DNA of 64,000 bases from Pseudomonas sp. (lineage in GTDB: Bacteria > Pseudomonadota > Gammaproteobacteria > Pseudomonadales > Pseudomonadaceae). The notes below the pieces were generated by a model. It made no database searches. It had not been told where the DNA came from and worked only from the letters and a program-made list of their open reading frames with translations. Location of the stretch: the NCBI RefSeq assembly GCF_030683065.1, contig NZ_JAUXMX010000037.1, positions 1 through 64,000 on the forward strand, written 5' to 3'. Below are positions 23,143 to 36,093 of this stretch, piece after piece; positions within the stretch are counted from its first letter, which is position 1, and every line of letters begins with the position of its first letter. A program made the translations under genes and the position numbers.

Positions 23143-25389
23143 TCAGAACGGCCTCCCCAAGTAGAGGTAGAAACTGTTGTTGCCGTCCTGTGCCCGCCCG
23201 TAACCCAGATATAGCGGCCCCAGGGGACTGTCTGCGCCAACGAAGATGCTGGCGGATTTCAGCCAATCCTCCGAATTGCCACGCACTAGTGGGTTGCCGA
23301 TACGTCCAGCCTCAAGGGATAAGCCGCCATAAGCACCCTCCAGCAGAGTGCCGCGCATAATCCGGTGGTAGTACATAAGACGGCCGAACTGCAGGCTTTC
23401 GCCGAGCAACTGGCCGGTGGAGTAACCAGACTGCTGGAGGAAACCGCCCCACTGGAAGTACTCGTAACGTGGCAAGGGGGCACTGCCCAGCTTGTCTCCC
23501 ACTTTCATGGAGAAGTTGAACGTGTGATTACCGAACGACTTGGCCAGCGTGCCATCAGCAACCACACGGGTGAATGCTTCATCCGCGCCCAGCGCACTGC
23601 GCGAATCATAGATATTCAACCCCGCACGCCAGCCCGAACGGGGGAAATGAACGCTGTCGAGCTGATCAAGTAGTAGGCGGCCGGTCAACGCGCCCAGTTG
23701 TACCCGCGACTCGCCCGGCGACAGGATCTGCGGGCCGGTATCCAGGGTCGGTTCCAAGATACCCCCGAGTATACCCAGACGCAATTCACCATAGCGGCTG
23801 AAATGACTGCCCAGGTCGACCCCGGCGGATTTTTCCAGCACCTCATAGCTGGCGATCCGATCATCTTGCTGATAGAGGTCGGCGGTACGCCGCTCAATAG
23901 TCAGGTGCGGGGCGACAAACAACGGCCCCGTAGCGCTTAAGGGCTGATAGAACTCACTGTACAGGCCACTGGTACGACCAATCTGCAGATCGCTGCGCCA
24001 CTCGGCGCCCAGTTCATTGAGCCAGGTTTTCCGATAGCTGCCGAGCAGGTTGAAGTAGGCGTCGCCACTGAAGTCAGTGGACAGGCCCAGACCGAAACGC
24101 AGGTAGTCAGGCCCCCAGGATTTCTCCGCGGCATCAATGGCCAGCACATGTTTGCCGGCATCATCCAGCAGGCTGTACTTCACATGCTCGAAGTGGCCGG
24201 TGCCATACAGACGACGCAGATCGCGATCCAGGGTGGGCTGATCGATCAACTCGCCCACCCGGGTATCCAGCACTGCCTGGGCATAGTTGGGATTGACCCG
24301 CTGCAGGTTCTCGAAGCGGATCTCATCTACCACCCGCTGCTCAGGCTGCACGGTGATCTGCTGGCGCTGACGCAAAGCGGCATAGTCCGCGGGCGGCATG
24401 GACAGGTGCTGAAGTTGGGCGGACACCTGGCGTGCGGCGGTCTCCCCCAGCGGGGCAATCTGTCTCAGGTTGTCGAAATCGCCAGTAGAGAAATTGCCCA
24501 GCTCCGGGGAAATCAGGATGTCTTGGTCCGTCAGCGTCGCCAGCGAGGCCTGGACGTTCTGCTCGGTCAGGATGCTCAGCATTTGCCCGGTGACGCCGAA
24601 TATACCGTTGATCTCCTCGCGCTTGAGCAGCGGGGTCCCGACATTGACCGCGATGATGATATCCGCCCCCATTTCACGGGCAGTCTGCACGGGCAGGTTG
24701 CTGGTGAGCATGCCATCGACCAGGAGCATGCCATCGACTTCGGCCGGGGCCACAGCACCCGGTACCGACATGCTGGCGCGCATCACGTTCGCCAGTTCGC
24801 CCCGGTCGAAGACCACGGCCTTGCCGGTGACCAAGTCGGTAGCGATCGCACGGAAGGGTATGGGTAGGTCATCGAACACGTAGAAGCCTTTTGCCTTGCT
24901 CAACTGGCGCAGCACAGTTTCCAGTTGCACCCCGGTCACCAAGCCCTTGCCGACCTTCACCTGGCCCTGCTGCAAACCCACCTCGGGGGTGAAGAGAATC
25001 GTGTAGTCATCCTGTTTGCGGCGCATATTCTGCTCTTGCCGCGGCGGGTTTTCCTTGAACAGCAGTTCGGTGGAAATACTACCGAGCAACTGCTCCATCT
25101 CCGGTAGTGACATACCAGTGGCGAAGGCAGCTCCCACCAGCGCCCCCATGCTGGTCCCGGCGATACAGTCGATTGGAATACGGTATTCATCCAGCACTTT
25201 GAGCACACCGACATGGGCAGCACCGCGCGCGCCACCACCGGAAAGCACCAGGCAGATGCGCGGGCGCGCCTCGTCCAAGGCCGCGGATTCGGTCCGCTGG
25301 TGATTGGCGGCCAGAAGGGATGCGGATAAGCATGCAGCCGTAATGGCTATCCATAACGGATACATGTAACGGACAAACCCTGCGTTCAT
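23143..25389 (-). CDS. PlpD-type patatin phospholipase autotransporter (type Vd)
   Basis: This 748-aa protein has a signal peptide (~1-28) followed by a patatin lipase domain (~44-330) with oxyanion loop GGGARG, nucleophile elbow GTSMG and catalytic Asp in LLVDGMLTSN. A POTRA-like region (~340-410) leads into a 16-strand Omp85-like β-barrel ending in NSFYLYLGRPF with a terminal aromatic. This is the architecture of P. aeruginosa PlpD, a secreted lipolytic enzyme. The ATG at 25389 has GGGAGG. It is the distal gene in the run of exported-protein genes that begins with the sulfatase. The lipid substrate is not deducible. Confidence 0.93.
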   Translation of the reverse strand: MNAGFVRYMYPLWIAITAACLSASLLAANHQRTESAALDEARPRICLVLSGGGARGAAHVGVLKVLDEYRIPIDCIAGTSMGALVGAAFATGMSLPEMEQLLGSISTELLFKENPPRQEQNMRRKQDDYTILFTPEVGLQQGQVKVGKGLVTGVQLETVLRQLSKAKGFYVFDDLPIPFRAIATDLVTGKAVVFDRGELANVMRASMSVPGAVAPAEVDGMLLVDGMLTSNLPVQTAREMGADIIIAVNVGTPLLKREEINGIFGVTGQMLSILTEQNVQASLATLTDQDILISPELGNFSTGDFDNLRQIAPLGETAARQVSAQLQHLSMPPADYAALRQRQQITVQPEQRVVDEIRFENLQRVNPNYAQAVLDTRVGELIDQPTLDRDLRRLYGTGHFEHVKYSLLDDAGKHVLAIDAAEKSWGPDYLRFGLGLSTDFSGDAYFNLLGSYRKTWLNELGAEWRSDLQIGRTSGLYSEFYQPLSATGPLFVAPHLTIERRTADLYQQDDRIASYEVLEKSAGVDLGSHFSRYGELRLGILGGILEPTLDTGPQILSPGESRVQLGALTGRLLLDQLDSVHFPRSGWRAGLNIYDSRSALGADEAFTRVVADGTLAKSFGNHTFNFSMKVGDKLGSAPLPRYEYFQWGGFLQQSGYSTGQLLGESLQFGRLMYYHRIMRGTLLEGAYGGLSLEAGRIGNPLVRGNSEDWLKSASIFVGADSPLGPLYLGYGRAQDGNNSFYLYLGRPF

Positions 25390-25452
25390 ACATCCTCCCA
25401 GGGATATTTTTAGCTATGTCTGCGCAGCGGCCAGCAGGCCCCATTCACAGGT

Positions 25453-26460
25453 TCAGGGTGATACGGTTCGGATCAGGCGGGAAAAGTCCGCCGAGTCGCT
25501 CGCCTGGCGGGCTCGCGTGTTGATCAGGGCATCACGCTGCACCTCGCTGAAGGGCCGCTGGGCATTCTGCAGATAGCCGTTTTCATAGAGATATTCGGGC
25601 ACATAACCACTGGCAAGGACTTTCCAGCTAAAGGAAATATGCTGCGGGTTAACCCGTGAACTCATCCAGATGCGCGTCGTGCAATTGGTGGTCAGGGTGT
25701 TGTAGAACTCCGGCCGATCCCTCAGTGAGTTCATCCGGTGCAGGTACTCCAGAAACAAGCGCCGGCCATTCTCGATCGGGGCACGGAGGGAATACAGGTA
25801 GACATCTTCCGGCGGATCGCGCCGATAGTTAGTGCGCAGCCGGATCACGTCGCGCTCGTCGGCTACCACGTAGTAAAGTTCGTACTGGCGAAAAAAACCC
25901 TTGAGGGTGGAGTAGCTCTCGTGGCGTTCCTTGCGCGTCTCGATGGATATGGCCAGATGCGCACCGTCAGCAAACGCGAAGCTGAGAAACACATGGGCAA
26001 TGGCCGGCCCCATCCAATACGAAGTAACCATGTCGACCCCCACCAGCTGGCGTAGATCGAACTCCCGGTCGTAATACGCTGGGGTGTAGTCGGTTTCGCT
26101 GCGGTACTCGAAGTTGCGGATGTTATGCACCGTGACCCGATTCCCGACGATGGTGGCATATGGCAGTACCGCCACATCCGCCTGCCAATGCCTCGCGTTG
26201 GACGGCTCGATGCCCTGATACCAGGAGAACAGCGCAGCCAGGGGCAACAGATAGGCCAGCAGCGCCCGCCTGCGCCAGCGCGCCATACCGAGGCCAAGCA
26301 AGGCGATCAGGCTCGACAGGGCAAACAGTAGGGCCAGGGCTAACCGTAAAAGACCCGCATCGTCCCCGGCGAAGACGATGGCCAATACGCCCCAGGCACC
26401 TAGTGCCAAGATCAGCAGCCCTAGCAGCAGCAGGCCTATGATGGTTGTAATACGCTTCAT
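25453..26460 (-). CDS. Membrane protein with Lnb/DUF4105 periplasmic domain
   Basis: This 335-aa protein has three N-terminal hydrophobic helices (~5-31, ~36-60, ~66-84) and a periplasmic domain from ~90. The domain contains the DUF4105 features RNFEYRSETDYTPAYYDREF, SFAFADGAHLAISIETRKER and NTLTTNCTTRIW with a conserved Cys. DUF4105 is also the N-terminal domain of Lnb, a lipoprotein N-acyltransferase of some Firmicutes and Bacteroidota, and has a papain-like Cys/His arrangement. Whether this protein modifies lipoproteins is inference; a DUF3313 lipoprotein lies nearby in the same run. The ATG has GAGG upstream. Confidence 0.82.
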   Translation of the reverse strand: MKRITTIIGLLLLGLLILALGAWGVLAIVFAGDDAGLLRLALALLFALSSLIALLGLGMARWRRRALLAYLLPLAALFSWYQGIEPSNARHWQADVAVLPYATIVGNRVTVHNIRNFEYRSETDYTPAYYDREFDLRQLVGVDMVTSYWMGPAIAHVFLSFAFADGAHLAISIETRKERHESYSTLKGFFRQYELYYVVADERDVIRLRTNYRRDPPEDVYLYSLRAPIENGRRLFLEYLHRMNSLRDRPEFYNTLTTNCTTRIWMSSRVNPQHISFSWKVLASGYVPEYLYENGYLQNAQRPFSEVQRDALINTRARQASDSADFSRLIRTVSP

Positions 26461-26654
26461 CGTGACTGCCTCATTCTGATCACTTCAAGCCCTGCCTTGG
26501 ACGCTGCGACATGCCACCTGCATGACCACGTCACCATGCACATCTGACTCGCGGCCGAAGAAAGAATAGGGTTCTGCATAGCCTGTAAGGGTTGGACGCA
26601 GCGCATGCAATACGGCGGTCGTTGCCCCTTGCACATGCTGGTTTCAACGGCATG

Positions 26655-28922
26655 CTAGTACAACAGCGGGTCCTCGGGATTGAGGCTAGCCAGTTCCGCG
26701 AACAATGCATTGGCCTGTTGTATGGCACCGGACTCACGCAGGTAACTGATCAGGGCCATACGCAGGGTGCGGTTGGCCGGGGCCAGCACTAGCTGGGCGC
26801 GCAGCAGGGTCAGCGCCGCCTCGACTTGCCCAGCATCGTGCAGGGCAACGGCGAGCACATAGGCGTAATCGCGATTCTCCGGGGCCAGTTCATAAGCCTG
26901 ACGCAATGCCGCCAACGCCTCCTGACGCTGACCACTACGAACCAGTGCCAGGCCCAGTGCGTGGTACAGGCTTGCCTCCTCGGGGTAATTCGCCGTGCTT
27001 TCGTGCAACAGCGCGATACCCTGCCCTGCCTGCCCCTGGGCTTCCAGCCATTGCGCCAGCATTAGCCGTGCGGGATGAAAATTCGGATTACGCTGCAAGG
27101 CCAGGTGCAAACTCGACTCGGCCTGATCGGCGCGCTGGGTCACTTGATAGAGCGCGGCCAGATTGGTCAGCGCCTCGGCACGATCCAGCTGCGCCCGCTG
27201 CGCCTGCTCATAGTCAGCCAGGACCGCCGGCCAGCGCGGCAAGCCTTGGTGCAAGGCGGGCGGTAGTTGTGCCAACTGCCAGGTGGCGGCCAGTCGTACC
27301 GCTCGACGAGGGTCATTCAACAGCGGGCCAAGAGCCTGTACCTGTTGCTCGGGCGTGGTCAGCGCGCCCACCACTTCGATAGCCGCCAGGCGTACGACGG
27401 GGTCGGGATGACGCAGGGCCGCAACCAGTATCTGCCCCGCCTGCGGTGTCGGATACTGGGGCAACTCTGCCAGCAGGGTCGCCTTGCGCAACCCAGGTAA
27501 ATCCGTTCTCGCCAACTGTGCATAGAGCGCGGCAGCTGCACCGGCACGCCCCTTGCGGGCGGAAAACAGGGCCTGAGCATAGCCGCCGTCGGCTGGCGCC
27601 GGCATGCCGTACCAGGCGTTAAACTGCTCAACAAGCTTCCCCGTTTCATCCTGCTGGTGGCACCCCAAGCAGGCGTCGCTGTGACCAAGTTCCAAAGCCT
27701 GGCGCGGGTTGGGCCGGCTAAAGCTGTGGTCATGGCGCAGGTCATTGCCCATGTAGTAACGCCCGGGCATATGGCAGCTCTGACATTGAGCACCTGGCGA
27801 ATCTACAGGGTGATGGTGGTGAGCCGGCGACTGATAGTCCTTGGCCTGCAAACCACCCATTCGAATGCCGCTGCGGATGGCCTGGCCGCTGGGGTTATGA
27901 CACTGGGTACAGACAGCGTCGCCCCTGGCGCGCAGTTCAGTGCTATGGGGGTTGTGGCAATCCGAGCAGCGCACGCCGGCGGTATGCATACGACTCTGGG
28001 TGAAGGAACCGTACTCGAACACTTCGTCTTGAATCTTGCCGTCGACCTCATATACACCGGCAGCCAGGAGGCTGGGCTGGTAATCGTCATACAGCCGATT
28101 TGCTGCGTGGTAGCCCACCTCCAGCGCCGCACGGCGGCTATGGCAGCGGGCACAGGTCTCCACTTCTGTGTGATTGCCGGCATCCTTCAGGTTCACCGGC
28201 AAGCCACGGCCGGTTGTGCCGAAGCCCTGCGGATCGGCCGCCCAAAGCAGATGATTGGAGGCTGGGCCATGACAGCTCTGACAACCCACGCCCAAAGCCT
28301 GCCAACGGCTGGAAAAACTATTGGTTTGACTGTCGAAGCGGCGCTCGAATCCGGTGGTATGGCATTCGATGCACATGGCGTTGGCATTCTGCTGCGCACC
28401 GCTCCAGTGCAGCGGATCACGATGATCCACCTGGGGATAGAGATGGAACCACTGTTGCTGCTCCACATTCCAGGCTGCCCCCAGGGCCTGCAGATGACCA
28501 CCCGGCAGCGCCAGCAGATACTGTTGCAGCGGGCTGACGCCGAATGTATAGGCCACCTTGAAATCGGCTGGCTGGCCGTCTGCCCCCGGCAGGGTGACCC
28601 AGAACTCCTCACCCTTGCGCTTAAAGACTGTGGTTTCTGCCGGCGTATGCAACGGCGCGGCAGTGAAGTCCGCCAGAACGGTCTCAGCACTGGCAAGCTG
28701 CATAGCCAGATGATGATGGGAGCCTTGCCAGTCCTGCACCTGTGAGGAATGACAACCCTGGCATTGCTGCTCATCCACCCAGCGCGCTGCACCCTGAGGG
28801 GTCGGTACCGCTGGTGTGTCCCACCAGATGGCATAAATGCCAGCCACCAGGATCAGGCAAAGAGCCAATAACACTAACCAGAAGCCTTGACGTGGCAGGT
28901 GGGTATGCATAGTGAAAGGCAT
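26655..28922 (-). CDS. Octaheme c-type cytochrome with HEAT and TPR repeats
   Basis: This ~755-aa protein has an N-terminal membrane anchor (WLVLLALCLILVAGIYAIWW) and eight CxxCH haem-binding motifs in the first ~430 residues: CQGCH, CIECH, CQSCH, CARCH, CSDCH, CTQCH, CQSCH and CLGCH. A HEAT-like segment follows (LRHPDPVVRLAAIEVVGAL, LNDPRRAVRLAATWQLAQL). At least four TPR units finish the protein. It should sit in the periplasm anchored to the inner membrane and transfer electrons, or act as a multihaem enzyme, with the repeats docking a partner. I choose the ATG at 28922 over an upstream GTG because the first residues lead into the anchor; the ribosome-binding site is poor for each. Confidence 0.9.
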   Translation of the reverse strand: MPFTMHTHLPRQGFWLVLLALCLILVAGIYAIWWDTPAVPTPQGAARWVDEQQCQGCHSSQVQDWQGSHHHLAMQLASAETVLADFTAAPLHTPAETTVFKRKGEEFWVTLPGADGQPADFKVAYTFGVSPLQQYLLALPGGHLQALGAAWNVEQQQWFHLYPQVDHRDPLHWSGAQQNANAMCIECHTTGFERRFDSQTNSFSSRWQALGVGCQSCHGPASNHLLWAADPQGFGTTGRGLPVNLKDAGNHTEVETCARCHSRRAALEVGYHAANRLYDDYQPSLLAAGVYEVDGKIQDEVFEYGSFTQSRMHTAGVRCSDCHNPHSTELRARGDAVCTQCHNPSGQAIRSGIRMGGLQAKDYQSPAHHHHPVDSPGAQCQSCHMPGRYYMGNDLRHDHSFSRPNPRQALELGHSDACLGCHQQDETGKLVEQFNAWYGMPAPADGGYAQALFSARKGRAGAAAALYAQLARTDLPGLRKATLLAELPQYPTPQAGQILVAALRHPDPVVRLAAIEVVGALTTPEQQVQALGPLLNDPRRAVRLAATWQLAQLPPALHQGLPRWPAVLADYEQAQRAQLDRAEALTNLAALYQVTQRADQAESSLHLALQRNPNFHPARLMLAQWLEAQGQAGQGIALLHESTANYPEEASLYHALGLALVRSGQRQEALAALRQAYELAPENRDYAYVLAVALHDAGQVEAALTLLRAQLVLAPANRTLRMALISYLRESGAIQQANALFAELASLNPEDPLLY

Positions 28923-29013
28923 TCTAAAATCCGGACAGAGAGAACAACGCAATTCACCAGCCCCCGCCACACCAAGCCCAAGAGCGAGGAGTGGGGAGGC
29001 ACCGCCATCGAAC

Positions 29014-29673
29014 TTACTGGAAACTCAATATATCGCGGGTCAGGTTGTCGATCACCGATTTGAAGTCATTGGCAGTTAGCACCTGCTTGTCATTATCCAG
29101 GGTTTTGCCAAGGCCCTTGCGCACAACGCGCAGTAAGGGTTTGCCAGTGGAGGTGTCCACCAGTTCCGCTTCCAGATACAGCTCGGAGTTCTGACTGCGC
29201 CCGCCACTGGCCGCCATGGCACCAGCCACCACCAAGGCTACCGGAATCACCTCATAGGGTTTAAGGCCCTGGGTACTAGCATCGACACCGGTGATGGCCC
29301 CGCGAAACGCCAGGGTACCCGGGCCGGCACCGATACTGGCCGGCTTCAGGCGACTGAACAGGGCAGTACTCACTCTGTCATTGGTGTAATCCAGCAGCTC
29401 CTGCAGGGTCTGCTGGTTGATACGTTCGCTGGAATGAGGCTCTGGATAGAAACGGATGGGCTGGTAAATCACTTGGGTGTAGTTGGCTACGTTGAAATCA
29501 GGGTCGGCCCAGCGCAGCACGCTATCACCACTGGTGGTCTTGGCCGCACTCAAGCCCTCGTAACTGGACAGGAATCCGGAATACTGCGACTGACTGGTGG
29601 TCGTAGTACTGCATCCACCGAGGGCGAAAACAGTGGCCAATAAGCCGCTCAATAGCAGTTTCGTTGTTTTCAT
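29014..29673 (-). CDS. DUF3313 lipoprotein
   Basis: This 219-aa lipoprotein has a lipobox ALGGC at residues ~19-23 after a short signal. The mature part reads YSGFLSSYEGLSAAKTTSGD and later QNSELYLEAELVDTSTGKPL, as in DUF3313 outer-membrane lipoproteins. The ATG at 29673 (MKTTKLLLSG) has GGAG and is preferred to the ORF start at 29691. It lies between the octaheme cytochrome and an outer-membrane protein in the sulfatase run. No function is established for DUF3313; an envelope accessory role is inferred from context. Confidence 0.85.
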   Translation of the reverse strand: MKTTKLLLSGLLATVFALGGCSTTTTSQSQYSGFLSSYEGLSAAKTTSGDSVLRWADPDFNVANYTQVIYQPIRFYPEPHSSERINQQTLQELLDYTNDRVSTALFSRLKPASIGAGPGTLAFRGAITGVDASTQGLKPYEVIPVALVVAGAMAASGGRSQNSELYLEAELVDTSTGKPLLRVVRKGLGKTLDNDKQVLTANDFKSVIDNLTRDILSFQ

Positions 29674-29766
29674 CGTTAACACTCCAGGCAAGTAAACAGG
29701 CGATGTGCTTAAAAGTAGAGTCGATAGATGCCAGCATCATGTGCGCAATGCTGTGCCCTGAAGAGC

Positions 29767-30570
29767 TTAACGTGGGAATAGCAGGGTCACCGCCGCCCTG
29801 AAACCCCAGCCGTATGCACCATTTACCGTACTGTCGAGCCAGTAACGTGGACCGAGCTGAATGCTCAAAGGCTGGCCGCCAATCCTCAGCAGCTGGGTCA
29901 CCGACAGGTTCAGCGGCACGGACCACTCTTTAGTCCGCCAGTCATAAGTTGACTCGGTATTGACACCGAAGCTGGTGTAGGTAGAGGTGGTGTAGGACAC
30001 AAAGGGTTGCAGAAAGGTGGCGTTGATCCTTTCACGGTCATCGGCAGGGCTACCCTCCAGCGACCACAGATGATTAGCCAGAGCGCCAACGGTCCAGCCA
30101 TTGGCCTGTTTCAGGACCACCGCCGTAGGGCCGGCGGCCCACTGATCCTGGGTTAGCAGATCATCGCTACCAGTCGGGATAAGAAATACCGGGCCTGCGC
30201 CCCAGATCCAGCCACTCTCGGTGGCGGCCTTGGGTGAAAAGAACAGACTTTGGGTCACATCACCGATACCTGACTTATCCGCCAATCCATTGGGGGCCAG
30301 GCTGCGCTGATCGATTACCGGCAGAATAGTCCTTGAGATCAAGTTCCAATCTTCATTGATGGAAAACGGCAGTACCGGTTGGATATTGGTCACCGTCTGG
30401 ATGCCGTCGCTGGTTGGCCCCAGCTTCTGGTTCCAGTTGTACTGCACCGGCAGGCTGTAAATCGCGGCGATGGGATTGAGGGATTTTTTCGCCAGCTCCG
30501 CCGCGTCATCAGCCAGTGCCCCACTCGCCACAAGGACCAGGCAGCCCCCTATCAAACCGTTACACTTCAC
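29767..30570 (-). CDS. Outer-membrane β-barrel protein of the 'transporter' (MetA-like) type
   Basis: This 267-aa protein starts with a GTG preceded by GGGG. It has a signal peptide ending SGALA and alternating hydrophobic strands typical of a small barrel (IQPVLPFSINEDWNLISRTI, WIWGAGPVFLIPTGSDD), ending AAVTLLFPR with the C-terminal aromatic region. It resembles the loosely defined outer-membrane 'transporter' proteins related to Phenol_MetA_deg. It follows the FadL-type gene. Passive transport of a hydrophobic compound is possible, but no substrate evidence exists. Confidence 0.7.
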   Translation of the reverse strand: MKCNGLIGGCLVLVASGALADDAAELAKKSLNPIAAIYSLPVQYNWNQKLGPTSDGIQTVTNIQPVLPFSINEDWNLISRTILPVIDQRSLAPNGLADKSGIGDVTQSLFFSPKAATESGWIWGAGPVFLIPTGSDDLLTQDQWAAGPTAVVLKQANGWTVGALANHLWSLEGSPADDRERINATFLQPFVSYTTSTYTSFGVNTESTYDWRTKEWSVPLNLSVTQLLRIGGQPLSIQLGPRYWLDSTVNGAYGWGFRAAVTLLFPR

Positions 30571-30648
30571 CTGCTAACCCCCCATACAAAGAAAAGGCCA
30601 TGTAGCCGTTTTGTGTTGCGCGGCGCCGAAGCACTTTTTATCAGCCAG

Positions 30649-30736
30649 CTTGCTGGCGATCCCCCCACAGGCAGGGTGCACCCTGCGTGCGCACCGGCGA
30701 ATGACCGATGTGGGTGATGCGCACAGCGCACCCTAC
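30649..30736. repeat. Mosaic of REP-like palindromes
   Basis: Within the 213-bp gap between the FadL gene and the next gene, GCCAGCTTGCTGGCGAT (30649-30665) matches a repeat at 60873. GTAGGGTGCGCTGTGCGCAT, read on the minus strand from 30736, is another copy of the family at 11820 and 13024. A third self-complementary stretch, GGGTGCACCC, lies at 30674-30683. Different repeat families have accumulated in one spot. Confidence 0.6.
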
Positions 30737-30783
30737 GAACTCAGGCCACTCAGGCGCAGGCCTTGGTATGAAACAGCCCGGTG

Positions 30784-32049
30784 CTAGAAGCGCCAGGTCG
30801 CACTGGCACTCAGAACCTGGATCCAGGCACCGTCGAAACTGCCAGACACGCGGTCACCATTGGGTTTTTCCTGGGTAACCGGCATGTCACCCATCCAGGC
30901 GAACTCATAGCTCAGATTCAGCTCGGTCTGCTCATCCAGCGCATGGGTAAGGCCGGTAGCGAAACGCCAGTTCTCACCCATTGGCACGGTGATACTGCGA
31001 TCCTTGTCGGCCACCGACGAGCTGTCGTAACCCACACCCGCCGACCACATCCAGCGTGGGTCGAAACGGTATTGGCTACCCAGCGACAGGTGCCAGGTGT
31101 CCTTGAAGTTGGCATTCAGGGAAGCCGACTTGGGCTGGTTGCTGTCCAGGTCGATACCGACCTCACCAAAGCGCGACCAGTCTTGCCAGTTGGCGCTGGC
31201 CAGCAGCGCCCACTGTGGATCCAGTTGGTGATACAGGCTGAAGGTCAGGGTCTGCGGCACCTGCATCTTCAGGGTAGTGGCGGCGTCCAGCACGCCGCGA
31301 TTTTGCAATGCGTTCGTGGCTAGCGGGCCCAGGCCCTCAAGCTTCATGTTGTCCTCGAACTCCAGGTCTATCTCGCTGGTGTAACTGAGACCCAGGCGGG
31401 TACCCGGATTCGGCGAATAGATCAGCCCAAGGCTGGCGCCATAGCTCCAGTCATCGGCTTCGAACTTGGCCCGGCCATCGCTCAGCAGCGGATTGAGATT
31501 GTTCACCGCCAGCTCGTTGCTCAGCATGGCGTAGTAGCCAATCAAGCCGAGGCCAACAGCCCACTGATCGTTGAACTTGTAGGCCACGCTGGGCATAAAG
31601 GTCATGCCCATCAGTGCCCCGTCCTGCAGGAAGTAGCGACCGCTCCAGTCGTCCTCGTAGTCGACACTCAGGCCGAAATCACCATAGTTGGCGAAGCCGA
31701 CGGACCAGCCATTGCCCAGCTCATGGGTGACGAACAGGCTGGCGCCCGGGATCCACTCCACCGCATTGCCACTGTCGCCGCCGCCGACAGTGGTGTTGCC
31801 GTCGACTTCGAAGCGCATATTGCCGTGCAACAGCTGAGCCCCACCACTGACCTGGGTACCGGACAGCAGCGCCATACCTGCCACGTTGCTAGCCAGGGTC
31901 GCCGGCCCCTGGGCACGTGCAGCAGCACCGGCGTTGGCCAGGCCGACGCCGTCGCTGCCAACCTCATAAAGCATCAGGCCACCGGCCAGCGCCGGCAGGG
32001 GCAAGGCCACCAGACAGGCCAGCAGGGTCAGGGGGAAATTCGGTTTCAT
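30784..32049 (-). CDS. FadL/OmpP1/TodX-family outer-membrane channel
   Basis: This 421-aa protein has a signal peptide (~1-22) followed by the FadL N-terminal hatch region, GGLMLYEVGSDGVGLANAGA, with the conserved GLANAGAAARAQG segment where FadL proteins plug the barrel. About fourteen β-strands follow, ending VLSASATWRF with the terminal Phe. FadL-family channels admit hydrophobic molecules such as fatty acids or aromatic hydrocarbons by lateral diffusion. It is directly downstream of the arylsulfatase, separated by a strong hairpin. The two are likely co-transcribed, implying a sulfated or hydrophobic substrate. Confidence 0.92.
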   Translation of the reverse strand: MKPNFPLTLLACLVALPLPALAGGLMLYEVGSDGVGLANAGAAARAQGPATLASNVAGMALLSGTQVSGGAQLLHGNMRFEVDGNTTVGGGDSGNAVEWIPGASLFVTHELGNGWSVGFANYGDFGLSVDYEDDWSGRYFLQDGALMGMTFMPSVAYKFNDQWAVGLGLIGYYAMLSNELAVNNLNPLLSDGRAKFEADDWSYGASLGLIYSPNPGTRLGLSYTSEIDLEFEDNMKLEGLGPLATNALQNRGVLDAATTLKMQVPQTLTFSLYHQLDPQWALLASANWQDWSRFGEVGIDLDSNQPKSASLNANFKDTWHLSLGSQYRFDPRWMWSAGVGYDSSSVADKDRSITVPMGENWRFATGLTHALDEQTELNLSYEFAWMGDMPVTQEKPNGDRVSGSFDGAWIQVLSASATWRF

Positions 32050-32078
32050 GGGTTCAATCCTGCCAAATAGGTTGCGTC

Positions 32079-32107
32079 ACTCCGGCGCGCACCATGCGCG
32101 CCGGAGT
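32079..32107 (-). terminator. Strong intercistronic hairpin between sulfatase and FadL genes
   Basis: ACTCCGGCGCGC / GCGCGCCGGAGT is a 12-bp perfect stem with a 5-nt loop, 8 bp after the sulfatase stop. No T run follows on the minus strand, so it may be an mRNA-stabilising or attenuating hairpin that adjusts the sulfatase-to-channel ratio rather than a full terminator. Confidence 0.6.
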
Positions 32108-32114
32108 CGTCGAG

Positions 32115-34469
32115 TCAATGCACCTGAACGGTGATTGTGTCGATTTTGCCGGTGAAGGCCGAACGCTGGCCGCTGCCGATGCTTTCCACCACCGGGGTGG
32201 CCAGATCGACGCCGACATCAGCCGTTTCATCCGCGGAGAACACCACAGGCTGAGTGCGCTCAATCCGTCCTTCTGCCACCTTCTGCTCATTCACGTAAAG
32301 CGTGCCCTGCCCGCCCTTGCCGAGGCCACCGCCGTCATAGGCGAACTCATAGCGCACAGTGGCCTTGCCCGCCGGCAGTGGTTTACTCGCCTGCAGTGCA
32401 GTCTGCTGCAAACCCAGGTAGTTGTAGGCGTAACCCGGCACGCCGTCCTTGACGTACAGCGACCAGCCACCGAAACGGCCACCCTGAGCGATCAGGGTGC
32501 CATTGGCCCCGCCTGCGGGGATCTCCACCTCGGCGGTGATGGTCTTGGACTTGTTCTTCACGTTGATAAAGACGTTTTCGCTCATGCGCGTCATGCCCTC
32601 GCCCAGGGTCAGGGAGGTACGACCAGCCATCAGATCCAGACGCCCGGCGATTTCCGGCACGGCCCGCTCAAAGCCACGGTCATCGATGGGCAGCACGTGG
32701 TTCTTTTCGGCTTCGGCCATAAACAGGGCCTGCATCTGCTTGAGCTTCTCCGGCTGCTTGGCGGCCAGATCAGTACTCAGGCTGAAGTCATTGCGCACAT
32801 CGAACAGCTCCCAGACATCGTCGGCCAAGGGACGAATCGGCTTGGGCGCCCAGGCCTCGCGGTGGATGGTGCGGGCAAACCAGCCCTCATGGTAGATGGC
32901 GCGGTTGCCCACGATCTCGAAGTACTGGGTGGTGTTGCGCTCGGCTGCCTTGGCATCATCGAAGCTGTACGCCATGCTGGTGCCTTGCATGGGGATCTGC
33001 GGGGTACCATTGACCACTTTCGGCTCCGGCAAGCCGGCCGCCTCGAGAATGGTCGGCGCCACGTCGATCACATGGCTGAACTGGCTGCGTATTTCGCCCT
33101 TGGCCTTGATGCCCTTGGGCCAACTCACCACCAGGCCATTGCGGGTACCACCGAAATCGGAGGCCACCTGCTTGGTCCAGGCGAAGGGCGCGTCGAAGGC
33201 CACGGCCCAACCGGCGGCCATGTGCGGATAGGTGTCCGCACTGCCCCAGCTGTCCAGCTTCTTCAGCATGTCCGCCAGGCTTTCCGGTACACCGTTGAAG
33301 TAGGTGTACTCGTTGCTCATGCCGAACTCGCCGCCTTCGGCGCTGGTACCGTTGTCGCCGATGATGTAGTAGACCAGCGTATTGTCGGCCTGACCGATGT
33401 CGGCGGTAGCCTGCAGCAGGCGGCCGACCTCATGGTCGGTGTAATCGACGAATGCGGCAAAGACTTCGGCCTGATGGCTGAACAAGCGCTTCTCGTCAGC
33501 CGAAAGTTTGTCCCAGTCCTTGATTGCGGTGGGTTTGGGCGGCAGCTTGGTGCCGGCCGGAACGACGCCCTGCTTGATCTGACGGGCCAGGCTTTCTTCG
33601 CGGATCTTGTCCCAGCCCTGATCGAATTTACCCTTCCACTTGGCGATCCACTCCTTGGGCACATGATGCGGCGCATGCACGGCACCCGGCGAAAAGTAGA
33701 CAAAGAACGGTTTATCCGGCGTCAGCGCCTTCTGGTACTTCATCCAGGCCACGGCCTGGTCGGTCATGTCGGTGAGGAAGTGGTAATTCGGGTCCTCCGG
33801 CGCCTCGATCGGCGTGGTGCCATCGTACAGCGCCGGCGCCCAGTGATTGGTCTCACCGCCAAGGAAACCGTAGAACTTGTCGAAGCCCTGCTGAGTAGGC
33901 CAGCGGTTGAACGGGCCAGATACACCGGTTTCCGCCGCAGGCGTTTCATGCCACTTGCCGAAAGCGGCGGTGCTGTAACCATTTAGACGCAGCATCTCGG
34001 CCACGGGTGCAGTGGCGTTGGGAATCTGCCCGGTGTTGCCGGGGAAAGCCGTGGCCAACTCGGTGATCAGGCCCATGTTCACCGTATGGTGATTGCGCCC
34101 GGATTTGAGCGCGGCGCGGGTCGGCGAGCACACCGCCGTGGTGTGGAAGTTGTTGTAGCGCAGACCCTGCTGGGCCAGGCCATCGAGGGTCGGGGTCGTA
34201 ATCGGGCCACCAAAGGTGCTGGTTGCGCCAAAACCCAAATCATCGATCAGCACAATGATCACGTTAGGTGCGCCCTTGGGCGCCTCAATCCGGAAAGGAG
34301 CAGGCGGCGTGGCATTGCGCACGTCCAGTTCGGTGTAGCGAGGACGCTCAGGCTCGGCGATTGGAAGCACCGTGCGCTCGAGCGCCGGAGCGCCGGTTTG
34401 AGCATAAGCACCGATACTCGACAAGCTGCCGAGAAGAAAACAACACAAGACCGATCCGTAACGTTTCAT
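32115..34469 (-). CDS. Periplasmic type I arylsulfatase
   Basis: This 784-aa sulfatase has a signal peptide (MKRYGSVLCCFLLGSLSSIGAYA). Metal ligands lie in VLIDDLGFGA (Asp76/77), and the formylglycine motif CSPTRAALKSGR begins with Cys114, so a maturase is needed to activate it. Other conserved parts are GKWHE and YFSPGAVHAPHH. The C-terminal ~200 residues form a β-rich extension (NKSKTITAEVEIPAGGANGT..). It hydrolyses sulfate esters. The substrate is unknown, but the adjacent FadL channel favours a hydrophobic sulfate ester. No formylglycine-generating enzyme gene is present in the window. It is the first gene of the envelope run. Confidence 0.93.
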   Translation of the reverse strand: MKRYGSVLCCFLLGSLSSIGAYAQTGAPALERTVLPIAEPERPRYTELDVRNATPPAPFRIEAPKGAPNVIIVLIDDLGFGATSTFGGPITTPTLDGLAQQGLRYNNFHTTAVCSPTRAALKSGRNHHTVNMGLITELATAFPGNTGQIPNATAPVAEMLRLNGYSTAAFGKWHETPAAETGVSGPFNRWPTQQGFDKFYGFLGGETNHWAPALYDGTTPIEAPEDPNYHFLTDMTDQAVAWMKYQKALTPDKPFFVYFSPGAVHAPHHVPKEWIAKWKGKFDQGWDKIREESLARQIKQGVVPAGTKLPPKPTAIKDWDKLSADEKRLFSHQAEVFAAFVDYTDHEVGRLLQATADIGQADNTLVYYIIGDNGTSAEGGEFGMSNEYTYFNGVPESLADMLKKLDSWGSADTYPHMAAGWAVAFDAPFAWTKQVASDFGGTRNGLVVSWPKGIKAKGEIRSQFSHVIDVAPTILEAAGLPEPKVVNGTPQIPMQGTSMAYSFDDAKAAERNTTQYFEIVGNRAIYHEGWFARTIHREAWAPKPIRPLADDVWELFDVRNDFSLSTDLAAKQPEKLKQMQALFMAEAEKNHVLPIDDRGFERAVPEIAGRLDLMAGRTSLTLGEGMTRMSENVFINVKNKSKTITAEVEIPAGGANGTLIAQGGRFGGWSLYVKDGVPGYAYNYLGLQQTALQASKPLPAGKATVRYEFAYDGGGLGKGGQGTLYVNEQKVAEGRIERTQPVVFSADETADVGVDLATPVVESIGSGQRSAFTGKIDTITVQVH

Positions 34470-34619: not shown

Positions 34620-35657
34620 TTAAAGAGGCTGCCTCAGGACTTGTAGACAGTTGCGCCGCAGGGCTCGCCACTGCGAAGGTGGCAAACCGGACCAGCGCCT
34701 GAATGCGCGATTGAACGACCCAGCGTCGGTGTATGCGAGCATGGCGGCGACCGCTTTTACGCTGAGATCTGTTTCCTTCAATAGCCTCTTGCTGATGGCG
34801 TAACGGGCCACATCTACAATTGAAAAATAACTCGCACCCTCCAATTCCAGCTGCCGATTCAGGGAACGTGTACTGAGGCCAAGATGCTGAGCAATATCAG
34901 CCTGGCAACATTTGCCAGACAGTAGCTGCGCATAAATGGCGACCTGCGCACGCTCAGCCAATGCCAGATGACCGGCCGGGTTAGCCGCGCACTCAACACC
35001 GGCCAAGCCAGGTAAGCCTGTAGGCAACACTCTTGCCAGCACCTCCGAAGGGAAGAGCAGTTCGTTATTCAGGCTGTTGAAGTGACATGGCGCCCCCATC
35101 AATTGCTCATATTTCTCGGGCCTAGTCGGTGGGCGATGGGAGAAGTGTAGTGCCTCAGGCCGCCATGTGGGCCCGCACAAATCCTGCATGATGCGTAATG
35201 CGATCATAAGGGCCGCGTCCTGAATCAATGACAACCCACTGAAGCTGCCCTCAAACACGCCATAACCTAATGCCGCGTATCCATCCACATGACGCAGGGT
35301 CACAATTGCGGCACGATCGTGCAGATACAGCATTTGCTGCGCTGCCTCCAAGGCCTGCCCCACTGTCGGCATCATGCCCATCACTTGAGCGACCGGGCCG
35401 AGCTGAGCGACACCGCTGTAATACCCCAGCAATAGCCCCAAGTGTTCGCAATGCAACTGCTGGGCAGCGCGTTCCAAGATGCGCCCCAACGTGACCATCG
35501 GAATACTATTCTCCGGCTGTTGAAGCAGTGCAGGCGAAATATTCAACTCGCGCAAAATGGGCGCCAAGGAGCCGCCCAAAGACTCCATCAGCCTGGGCAA
35601 TGCCATCAGCGGAGCCACCCGCAGTTGCCCTCTAGCCAAAGATAACGACCTATCCAT
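34620..35657 (-). CDS. AraC-family regulator with arabinose-binding-type N-terminal domain
   Basis: This ~345-aa regulator has the OruR/ArgR-like layout: an N-terminal effector domain (~20-210, PF12625 type) with APILRELNISPALLQQPENS and a C-terminal pair of helix-turn-helix units (~240-335). The signature AMLAYTDAGSFNRAFRRWSG is well kept. The ATG at 35657 is used; a GTG two codons upstream is an alternative. Members of this subgroup often control lipid, ester or amino-acid catabolic genes next to them. It is upstream of and co-directional with the sulfatase, so it is the obvious candidate regulator of the exported-protein run. Confidence 0.9.
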   Translation of the reverse strand: MDRSLSLARGQLRVAPLMALPRLMESLGGSLAPILRELNISPALLQQPENSIPMVTLGRILERAAQQLHCEHLGLLLGYYSGVAQLGPVAQVMGMMPTVGQALEAAQQMLYLHDRAAIVTLRHVDGYAALGYGVFEGSFSGLSLIQDAALMIALRIMQDLCGPTWRPEALHFSHRPPTRPEKYEQLMGAPCHFNSLNNELLFPSEVLARVLPTGLPGLAGVECAANPAGHLALAERAQVAIYAQLLSGKCCQADIAQHLGLSTRSLNRQLELEGASYFSIVDVARYAISKRLLKETDLSVKAVAAMLAYTDAGSFNRAFRRWSGLPPSQWRALRRNCLQVLRQPL

Positions 35658-36093
35658 AGCCACCTGCCTTGTTCAATCCGAACGCAATGCCCGCCAAGCG
35701 AGCTGCACCGGATTCTAGGTAGCACGAAGCTTGGCTTTATTAATCCAGATCAACGTAATCAGTGATGCTCAGGTACGTGGCCAGCACGTAATACTGCAGC
35801 CATGTCATTTGACCTAACCGTGTTGGTTGTAAAGTCCTAAGCCGGCGTGCCCCATCTTGATGGTCAATCCATCTCGTCAGGATGTCCCCGGCATACTGAA
35901 TAACCTGCCCGGCAAGCGAGGTGTCAACACAAAAGGCGGCACTGCGGCCGGACAACGCCGTAAGGACGATCCGTGGCCGCGAGCCCTATGAAGGAAGGAT
36001 CTTAACTAACGGATTGAGTTTGCCGTCATGGTGACGCCTACCAACTTTTCCTTCAGGCATCTGGCATGAACGAATACTCGTATTCACGTTACC
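35658..36093. other. Intergenic region, nothing recognised
   Basis: About 435 bp between the AraC gene and the elastin-like gene. A 71-codon open frame at 35740-35955 on the minus strand lacks a ribosome-binding site and any familiar motif, and is not annotated. I see no repeat or terminator. Confidence 0.4.

Follow-up and report, generated by a model that had tools for sequence, protein, structure and literature searches.

Formylglycine (FGly) formation in sulfatases is established for two enzymes, FGE (SUMF1; PF03781) and anSME (TIGR03942). The conversion of cysteine to FGly is a two-electron oxidation in which sulfide is lost; FGE is a copper enzyme using O2, whereas anSME is a cytosolic radical-SAM enzyme. 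The Cys-modifying machinery for sulfatases in E. coli has been described as elusive (PMC6189696). In bacteria that have neither FGE nor anSME, the cytochrome described here is a candidate for the activation of exported Cys-type sulfatases.

MoxR/VWA pairs, such as NorQD and RavA-ViaA, serve as cofactor-insertion and remodelling chaperones, and the MccA family has active-site haems. The octahaem sulfite reductase MccA (4RKM) and the nonahaem terminal reductase OcwA (6I5B) have a common beta-sheet domain, and two of the haems of OcwA are five-coordinate, a His-His pair being placed above them (PMC6703420). NorQD inserts the FeB cofactor (PMC9976466), and the arylsulfatase of P. aeruginosa is an S1_4 enzyme (PMC5066984). 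No paper joining multihaem cytochromes with sulfatases or with FGly was found in the literature searched, outside which subscription journals mostly lie, so that prior work could exist. No multihaem cytochrome is known as an FGly-forming enzyme.

Gene content of the locus

The window, a stretch of 64,000 nucleotides, comes from a 4.65 Mb genome (G000, 65 contigs) whose named relatives in its group are Pseudomonas and Halopseudomonas. A block of genes on its minus strand begins with an AraC-family regulator (34620..35663; Arabinose_bd and HTH_18 in Pfam), followed by an exported type I (FGly) sulfatase of 784 aa with a signal peptide (32115..34469; PF00884, E 1e-58), a FadL/TodX-type outer-membrane channel (30784..32049; PF03349, E 5e-72) and a predicted outer-membrane-like barrel protein (29767..30570). 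Next come a DUF3313 lipoprotein with the lipobox LGGC (29014..29691; PF11769, E 4e-51), the likely start of which is the ATG at residue 7, and an octahaem c-type cytochrome with eight CXXCH motifs and HEAT and TPR repeats (26655..28970). An Lnb_N/DUF4105 membrane protein with H156 and C260 (25453..26460; PF13387, E 7e-43) and an adjoining PlpD-type patatin-POTRA-Omp85 protein (23143..25389; PF01734 and PF01103) complete the block.

All of these genes lie at the coordinates given in the initial annotation, which had described seven consecutive minus-strand genes for exported or membrane proteins with AraC at the head. Its label "MetA-like" for the barrel protein is not borne out, given that this protein has no Pfam or NCBIfam match at E 0.001. 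The Lnb_N protein passes the PF13387 cut-off (146.7 bits against 22.2), and the patatin protein is of the PlpD/type Vd kind, with GGGARG, GTSMG at 78, a DG dyad at 219 and a BamA/POTRA-type match. A reading of the locus as a defence system was rejected, as it found only weak patatin matches.

Intergenic gaps in the block measure about 40-215 bp, and promoter-like sites on the minus strand occur only upstream of the sulfatase (34575-34509), features from which a single transcript appears possible. Terminator-like and promoter-like sites in the block are no more frequent than in shuffled sequence.

By PF00884/S1 criteria the window sulfatase is a type I (FGly) enzyme, with the core C114-S-P-T-R (Cys codon 34130-34128) and GKWH at 171. 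Its closest solved relative is the P. aeruginosa arylsulfatase AtsA (1HDH and variants), with which it has the CSPTR core in common and from which it differs in having a signal peptide and additional sequence at the C-terminus. The source genome encodes two FGly sulfatases, the window enzyme and a cytosolic, choline-sulfatase-like CAPSR protein, together with one further PF00884 protein that is lipid-phosphotransferase-like. Counting PF00884 matches as a measure of sulfatases was rejected, because lipid phosphotransferases also match (for example, an 859-aa protein on contig C30); FGly sulfatases were instead counted with a profile (A3) that covers the core of the sulfatases.

A search for anSME (TIGR03942 radical-SAM), which covered the source genome only, gave no match there. 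Nor does this genome encode a canonical FGE, as its sole PF03781 protein is without the FGE Cys pair, defined as a copper-binding C-x4-C before a GFR-type end, with the FGE of genome G024 as positive control. That PF03781 protein is itself exported (G000:C8:31357-31977; L110).

The octahaem cytochrome

The eight CXXCH motifs of the window cytochrome lie at residues 70, 200, 230, 273, 335, 354, 396 and 434. The protein has an N-terminal membrane anchor (Met17 or Met21 may be the true start), beta strands between haems 1 and 2, and then HEAT followed by TPR repeats. Eight CXXCH motifs at near-constant spacing are the hallmark of the family. Comparison of 28 sequences shows all CXXCH motifs to be invariant, along with six histidines outside them and other residues, among them a PLQQY stretch. 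Those six non-motif histidines are too few to ligate all eight haems twice. The window protein also has an HHHH stretch at 384-387. An open haem site is no more than a suggestion, the structural model having been built without haems.

A fold search with the full-length model was dominated by TPR proteins and was rerun with the haem domain alone (pLDDT 83). The best solved fold is OcwA 6I5B (Foldseek E 4e-12, TM 0.60 by query length), which is also matched at profile level (2e-22); MccA 4RKM (E 1.5e-4, TM about 0.4 by query length) and the S-layer undecahaem cytochrome 6QVM are also among the best folds. The beta strands between haems 1 and 2 in the model can be compared with the beta domain of OcwA and MccA. 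However, identity to those enzymes is about 15-17%, they are without HEAT/TPR repeats, and no sulfatase linkage has been reported for them. The cytochrome has no Pfam match to PF03781, the FGE fold, and with its eight haems and HEAT/TPR repeats it has no sequence or fold relation to FGE.

The cytochrome gene is normally present in one copy per genome, even where up to 15 sulfatases are detected. A scan of named genome contigs yielded four cytochrome loci. A separate membrane-anchored protein, about 40% identical and with no haem motifs, matches the HEAT/TPR half alone; in many Pseudomonas its gene is the last of an RND efflux operon (L108 9141-10304 and L109 9101-10198, with matches in most Pseudomonas genomes).

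Association with sulfatases and with FGE

There is good support for a conserved core of the locus that consists of the octahaem HEAT/TPR cytochrome and an exported Cys-type sulfatase. Of 40 further loci in the order, 16 have an FGly sulfatase within about 10 kb of the cytochrome, where the sulfatase counts of the individual genomes predict 1.1 (Poisson 6e-14), and 12 have one within 3 kb, against 0.45; about 50 more cytochrome loci of the order fall outside this count. Linkage was found in 19/24 loci of the first set and in 5/19 elsewhere in the class. Among plasmid records of alpha- and gammaproteobacteria, a sulfatase is near the cytochrome in 10/11 loci, from Methylocystis, Methylosinus, Rhizobium, S. 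meliloti, S. medicae, Pararhizobium, Pseudoalteromonas, two Vibrio and Alisedimentitalea; the Qingshengfaniella plasmid locus is the one without. In Methylosinus, the sulfatase and cytochrome reading frames overlap by 4 nt; such an overlap is present in Methylosinus trichosporium OB3b (CQW49_RS22140/22135).

All linked sulfatases inspected are Cys-type, with the cores CTAGR, CSPTR, CTPGR, CTPSR, CSPSR, CSPGR and CTPTR from several subfamilies, and in nearly all of them a hydrophobic segment at the N-terminus precedes the catalytic domain. In other Pseudomonas the pair occurs in a whole or partial operon of the form MoxR-DUF58-DUF4381-VWA-VWA/TPR-BatD-HAD-sulfatase-(MFS/spermidine-synthase-like)-cytochrome, where the sulfatase belongs to a different subfamily (528 aa, CTAGR), and in a Halopseudomonas locus (L035) a third sulfatase type (CSPSR) directly follows the cytochrome.

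Four queries, run over one common set of 295 genomes from the order, served to score presence and absence. An FGly sulfatase is found in 104/104 genomes with the cytochrome and in 93/191 without it (Fisher 1.3e-24), related species not being independent samples; by genus the figures are 49/49 with the cytochrome against 85/118 overall (p 3e-10). Detected sulfatases average 5.5 per genome with the cytochrome and 1.0 without.

Canonical FGE was sought with one Pseudomonas protein that carries the copper Cys pair (from G024), so that divergent FGEs could be missed. Taking every PF03781 protein as an FGE was rejected, since most Pseudomonas matches are PvdO-like and without the Cys pair. FGE was found in 21 genomes, and all 21 have an FGly sulfatase; the sulfatase-bound distribution of the cytochrome thus resembles that of a known maturase, each occurring always with FGly sulfatases. 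The FGE gene, too, sometimes lies beside a sulfatase gene (L232, L233, L237, L238), and in related species it takes the cytochrome's place.

Among genomes with a sulfatase, 2 have both genes, 19 FGE only, 102 the cytochrome only and 74 neither (p 3e-5). When labels are permuted within genus, the overlap of 2 compares with 6.4 expected (p 0.001), and within families with 8.8 expected (p 5e-5); the within-genus test is weaker among genomes with at least 3 sulfatases (p 0.07). Five genera (g13, g25, g45, g72, g80) contain some species with FGE and others with the cytochrome. Among 25 genomes that encode a sulfatase of the window's own type, 23 carry the cytochrome too; of the two exceptions, G140 has FGE, and neither gene was detected in G087. 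The S. meliloti plasmid pSymA carries the cytochrome. Since a putative FGE has been reported for S. meliloti (PMC6189696), rhizobial carriers of the cytochrome may also have FGE.

The 74 sulfatase genomes with neither gene indicate that there is another route. The majority of them have 1-2 sulfatases, and neither gene is found in 9/93 genomes with at least 3. In three genomes (G059, G087, G308), 5-13 FGly sulfatases were detected but neither of the two genes, and these genomes may rely on anSME or on a different route.

Possible roles of the cytochrome and its neighbours

The conclusion with the best support is that the cytochrome functions jointly with exported Cys-type sulfatases in general. 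Its FGE-like distribution and near-exclusion with FGE, the many sulfatase subfamilies, its presence in one copy and its protein-binding repeats suggest that it acts on the sulfatase protein and not on one substrate. Its distribution suggests an undescribed way to switch on secreted sulfatases. At a probability of roughly 0.5, our main reading is that the cytochrome is a periplasmic haem enzyme that helps to mature exported Cys-type sulfatases, replacing FGE or anSME, and is thus a candidate third route to FGly. Such a family, found with FGly sulfatases in all 104 genomes in which it was detected and exchanged for FGE between species of one genus, is a direct candidate for the activation of exported sulfatases.

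In such a scheme, the cytochrome would be anchored in the inner membrane and face the periplasm, where its HEAT/TPR arm may bind the unfolded or folding sulfatase. It would take part in the conversion of the core cysteine (C114 in the window enzyme) to FGly, electrons would travel along the haems into the respiratory chain, and the cytochrome would thereby stand in for FGE or anSME for secreted sulfatases. As with anSME, the proposed job is FGly formation without FGE, with electrons leaving the cysteine. The fullest version of the proposal, in which the cytochrome is a third class of maturase, a haem-based periplasmic FGly generator that feeds electrons into respiration and replaces both FGE and anSME in many proteobacteria, is held more tentatively. 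If true, it would tie sulfatase activation to respiration and provide a new aldehyde-tag catalyst.

A MoxR/DUF58/VWA/BatD operon that accompanies cytochrome and sulfatase in many loci fits a maturation role, because NorQD inserts the FeB cofactor; however, it is absent beside the window's genes, and a sulfatase link of such systems is not described in the papers found. Against a maturation role, no sulfatase is close by in roughly half of the cytochrome loci, and G087 has seven detected sulfatases with neither cytochrome nor FGE.

The cytochrome could instead be a redox partner in the same catabolic pathway, exchanging electrons with the product of the sulfatase or with a co-occurring compound and not with the sulfatase itself. 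Resemblance of the haem domain to OcwA and MccA, enzymes for small N and S compounds (PMC6703420), speaks for this reading, as does the recurrence nearby of FadL and barrel proteins, which would fit uptake of a compound. Yet the partner sulfatases span several distant subfamilies and gene settings, and neither complementarity to FGE nor service to many different sulfatases from one copy would be expected of an enzyme of one pathway, so that we consider a redox partner the less probable explanation, at about one chance in four. The proposal of the initial annotation that periplasmic electron transfer serves the processing of a sulfated lipid likewise explains less than action on the sulfatase protein.

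It is unlikely, though a real alternative, that the cytochrome is a scaffold, export or folding factor, with the HEAT/TPR arm docking the sulfatase in the periplasm or protecting its cysteine or aldehyde, the haems setting redox poise, and FGly made in the cytosol by an E. coli-type route. TPR and HEAT repeats are protein-binding, an unidentified Cys-modifying route is documented in E. coli (PMC6189696), and the 74 genomes above manage without FGE and without the cytochrome. Such a factor nevertheless leaves unexplained the eight conserved haems, the many invariant non-haem residues and the near-exclusion with FGE.

The remaining genes of the block were compared across neighbourhoods, and the seven-gene cluster is non-random, yet it is not conserved as a whole, the complete set being seen only in the window. 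In P. guryensis (L034), sulfatase, FadL and cytochrome stand together (90, 88 and 58% identity to the window proteins) and the Lnb-patatin pair is divergent from them. Pseudomonas sp. 8AS (L036) has AraC, sulfatase, FadL and cytochrome in the same order, headed by an AraC homologue 48% identical to the window regulator and without Lnb-patatin. In both, FadL is directly downstream of the sulfatase and 83-88% identical to the window FadL. The Lnb gene was found in no cytochrome locus beyond the window and L034, and most cytochrome loci are without the Lnb-patatin pair, which is a separate module.

FadL, the barrel protein, DUF3313 and the patatin are changeable accessories that recur in varying subsets and perhaps serve uptake of the sulfate ester or its product. 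DUF3313 adjoins the cytochrome in several other Pseudomonas, usually in divergent orientation. Relatives of the barrel protein lie near the cytochrome in L270, L275, L280, L288 and L311 (47-55% identity) and L052 (53%), FadL in L272, L276, L280, L288 and L292, and a PlpD-like patatin in L289, L291, L293 and L298; L272 combines FadL, DUF3313, AraC, cytochrome, sulfatase and the MoxR operon. It is thus improbable that the seven genes form one envelope system for a sulfated lipid-like compound, as had been proposed. Their common strand, their short gaps and the recurrence near the pair of subsets of FadL, barrel protein, DUF3313, AraC and patatin speak for such a system. The neighbourhood comparison by which that proposal was to be checked gave the outcome it had named as refuting, namely that the genes move independently. 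What endures is that the sulfatase and the multihaem cytochrome belong together. Last, that both genes are merely common in the large heterotrophic genomes of the same lineages is highly improbable, for the strong difference in sulfatase counts would fit this, but physical linkage far above chance, repeated on alphaproteobacterial plasmids, and the within-genus exchange of cytochrome and FGE would not.

Other genes also occur around the pair. An 870-aa fusion of MFS-like and spermidine-synthase-like parts lies between sulfatase and cytochrome in L037 (6221-8845) and in the same position in ten Pseudomonas loci. A HAD-family hydrolase is found between or beside the two genes in alpha- and gammaproteobacteria (L311, L312, L319, L320, L313), and that of L037 (3384-4406) has a signal-peptide-like start. 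In L205 (6342-8733), two open reading frames that are sulfotransferase-like by sequence lie directly upstream of a cytochrome gene with no sulfatase in its vicinity.
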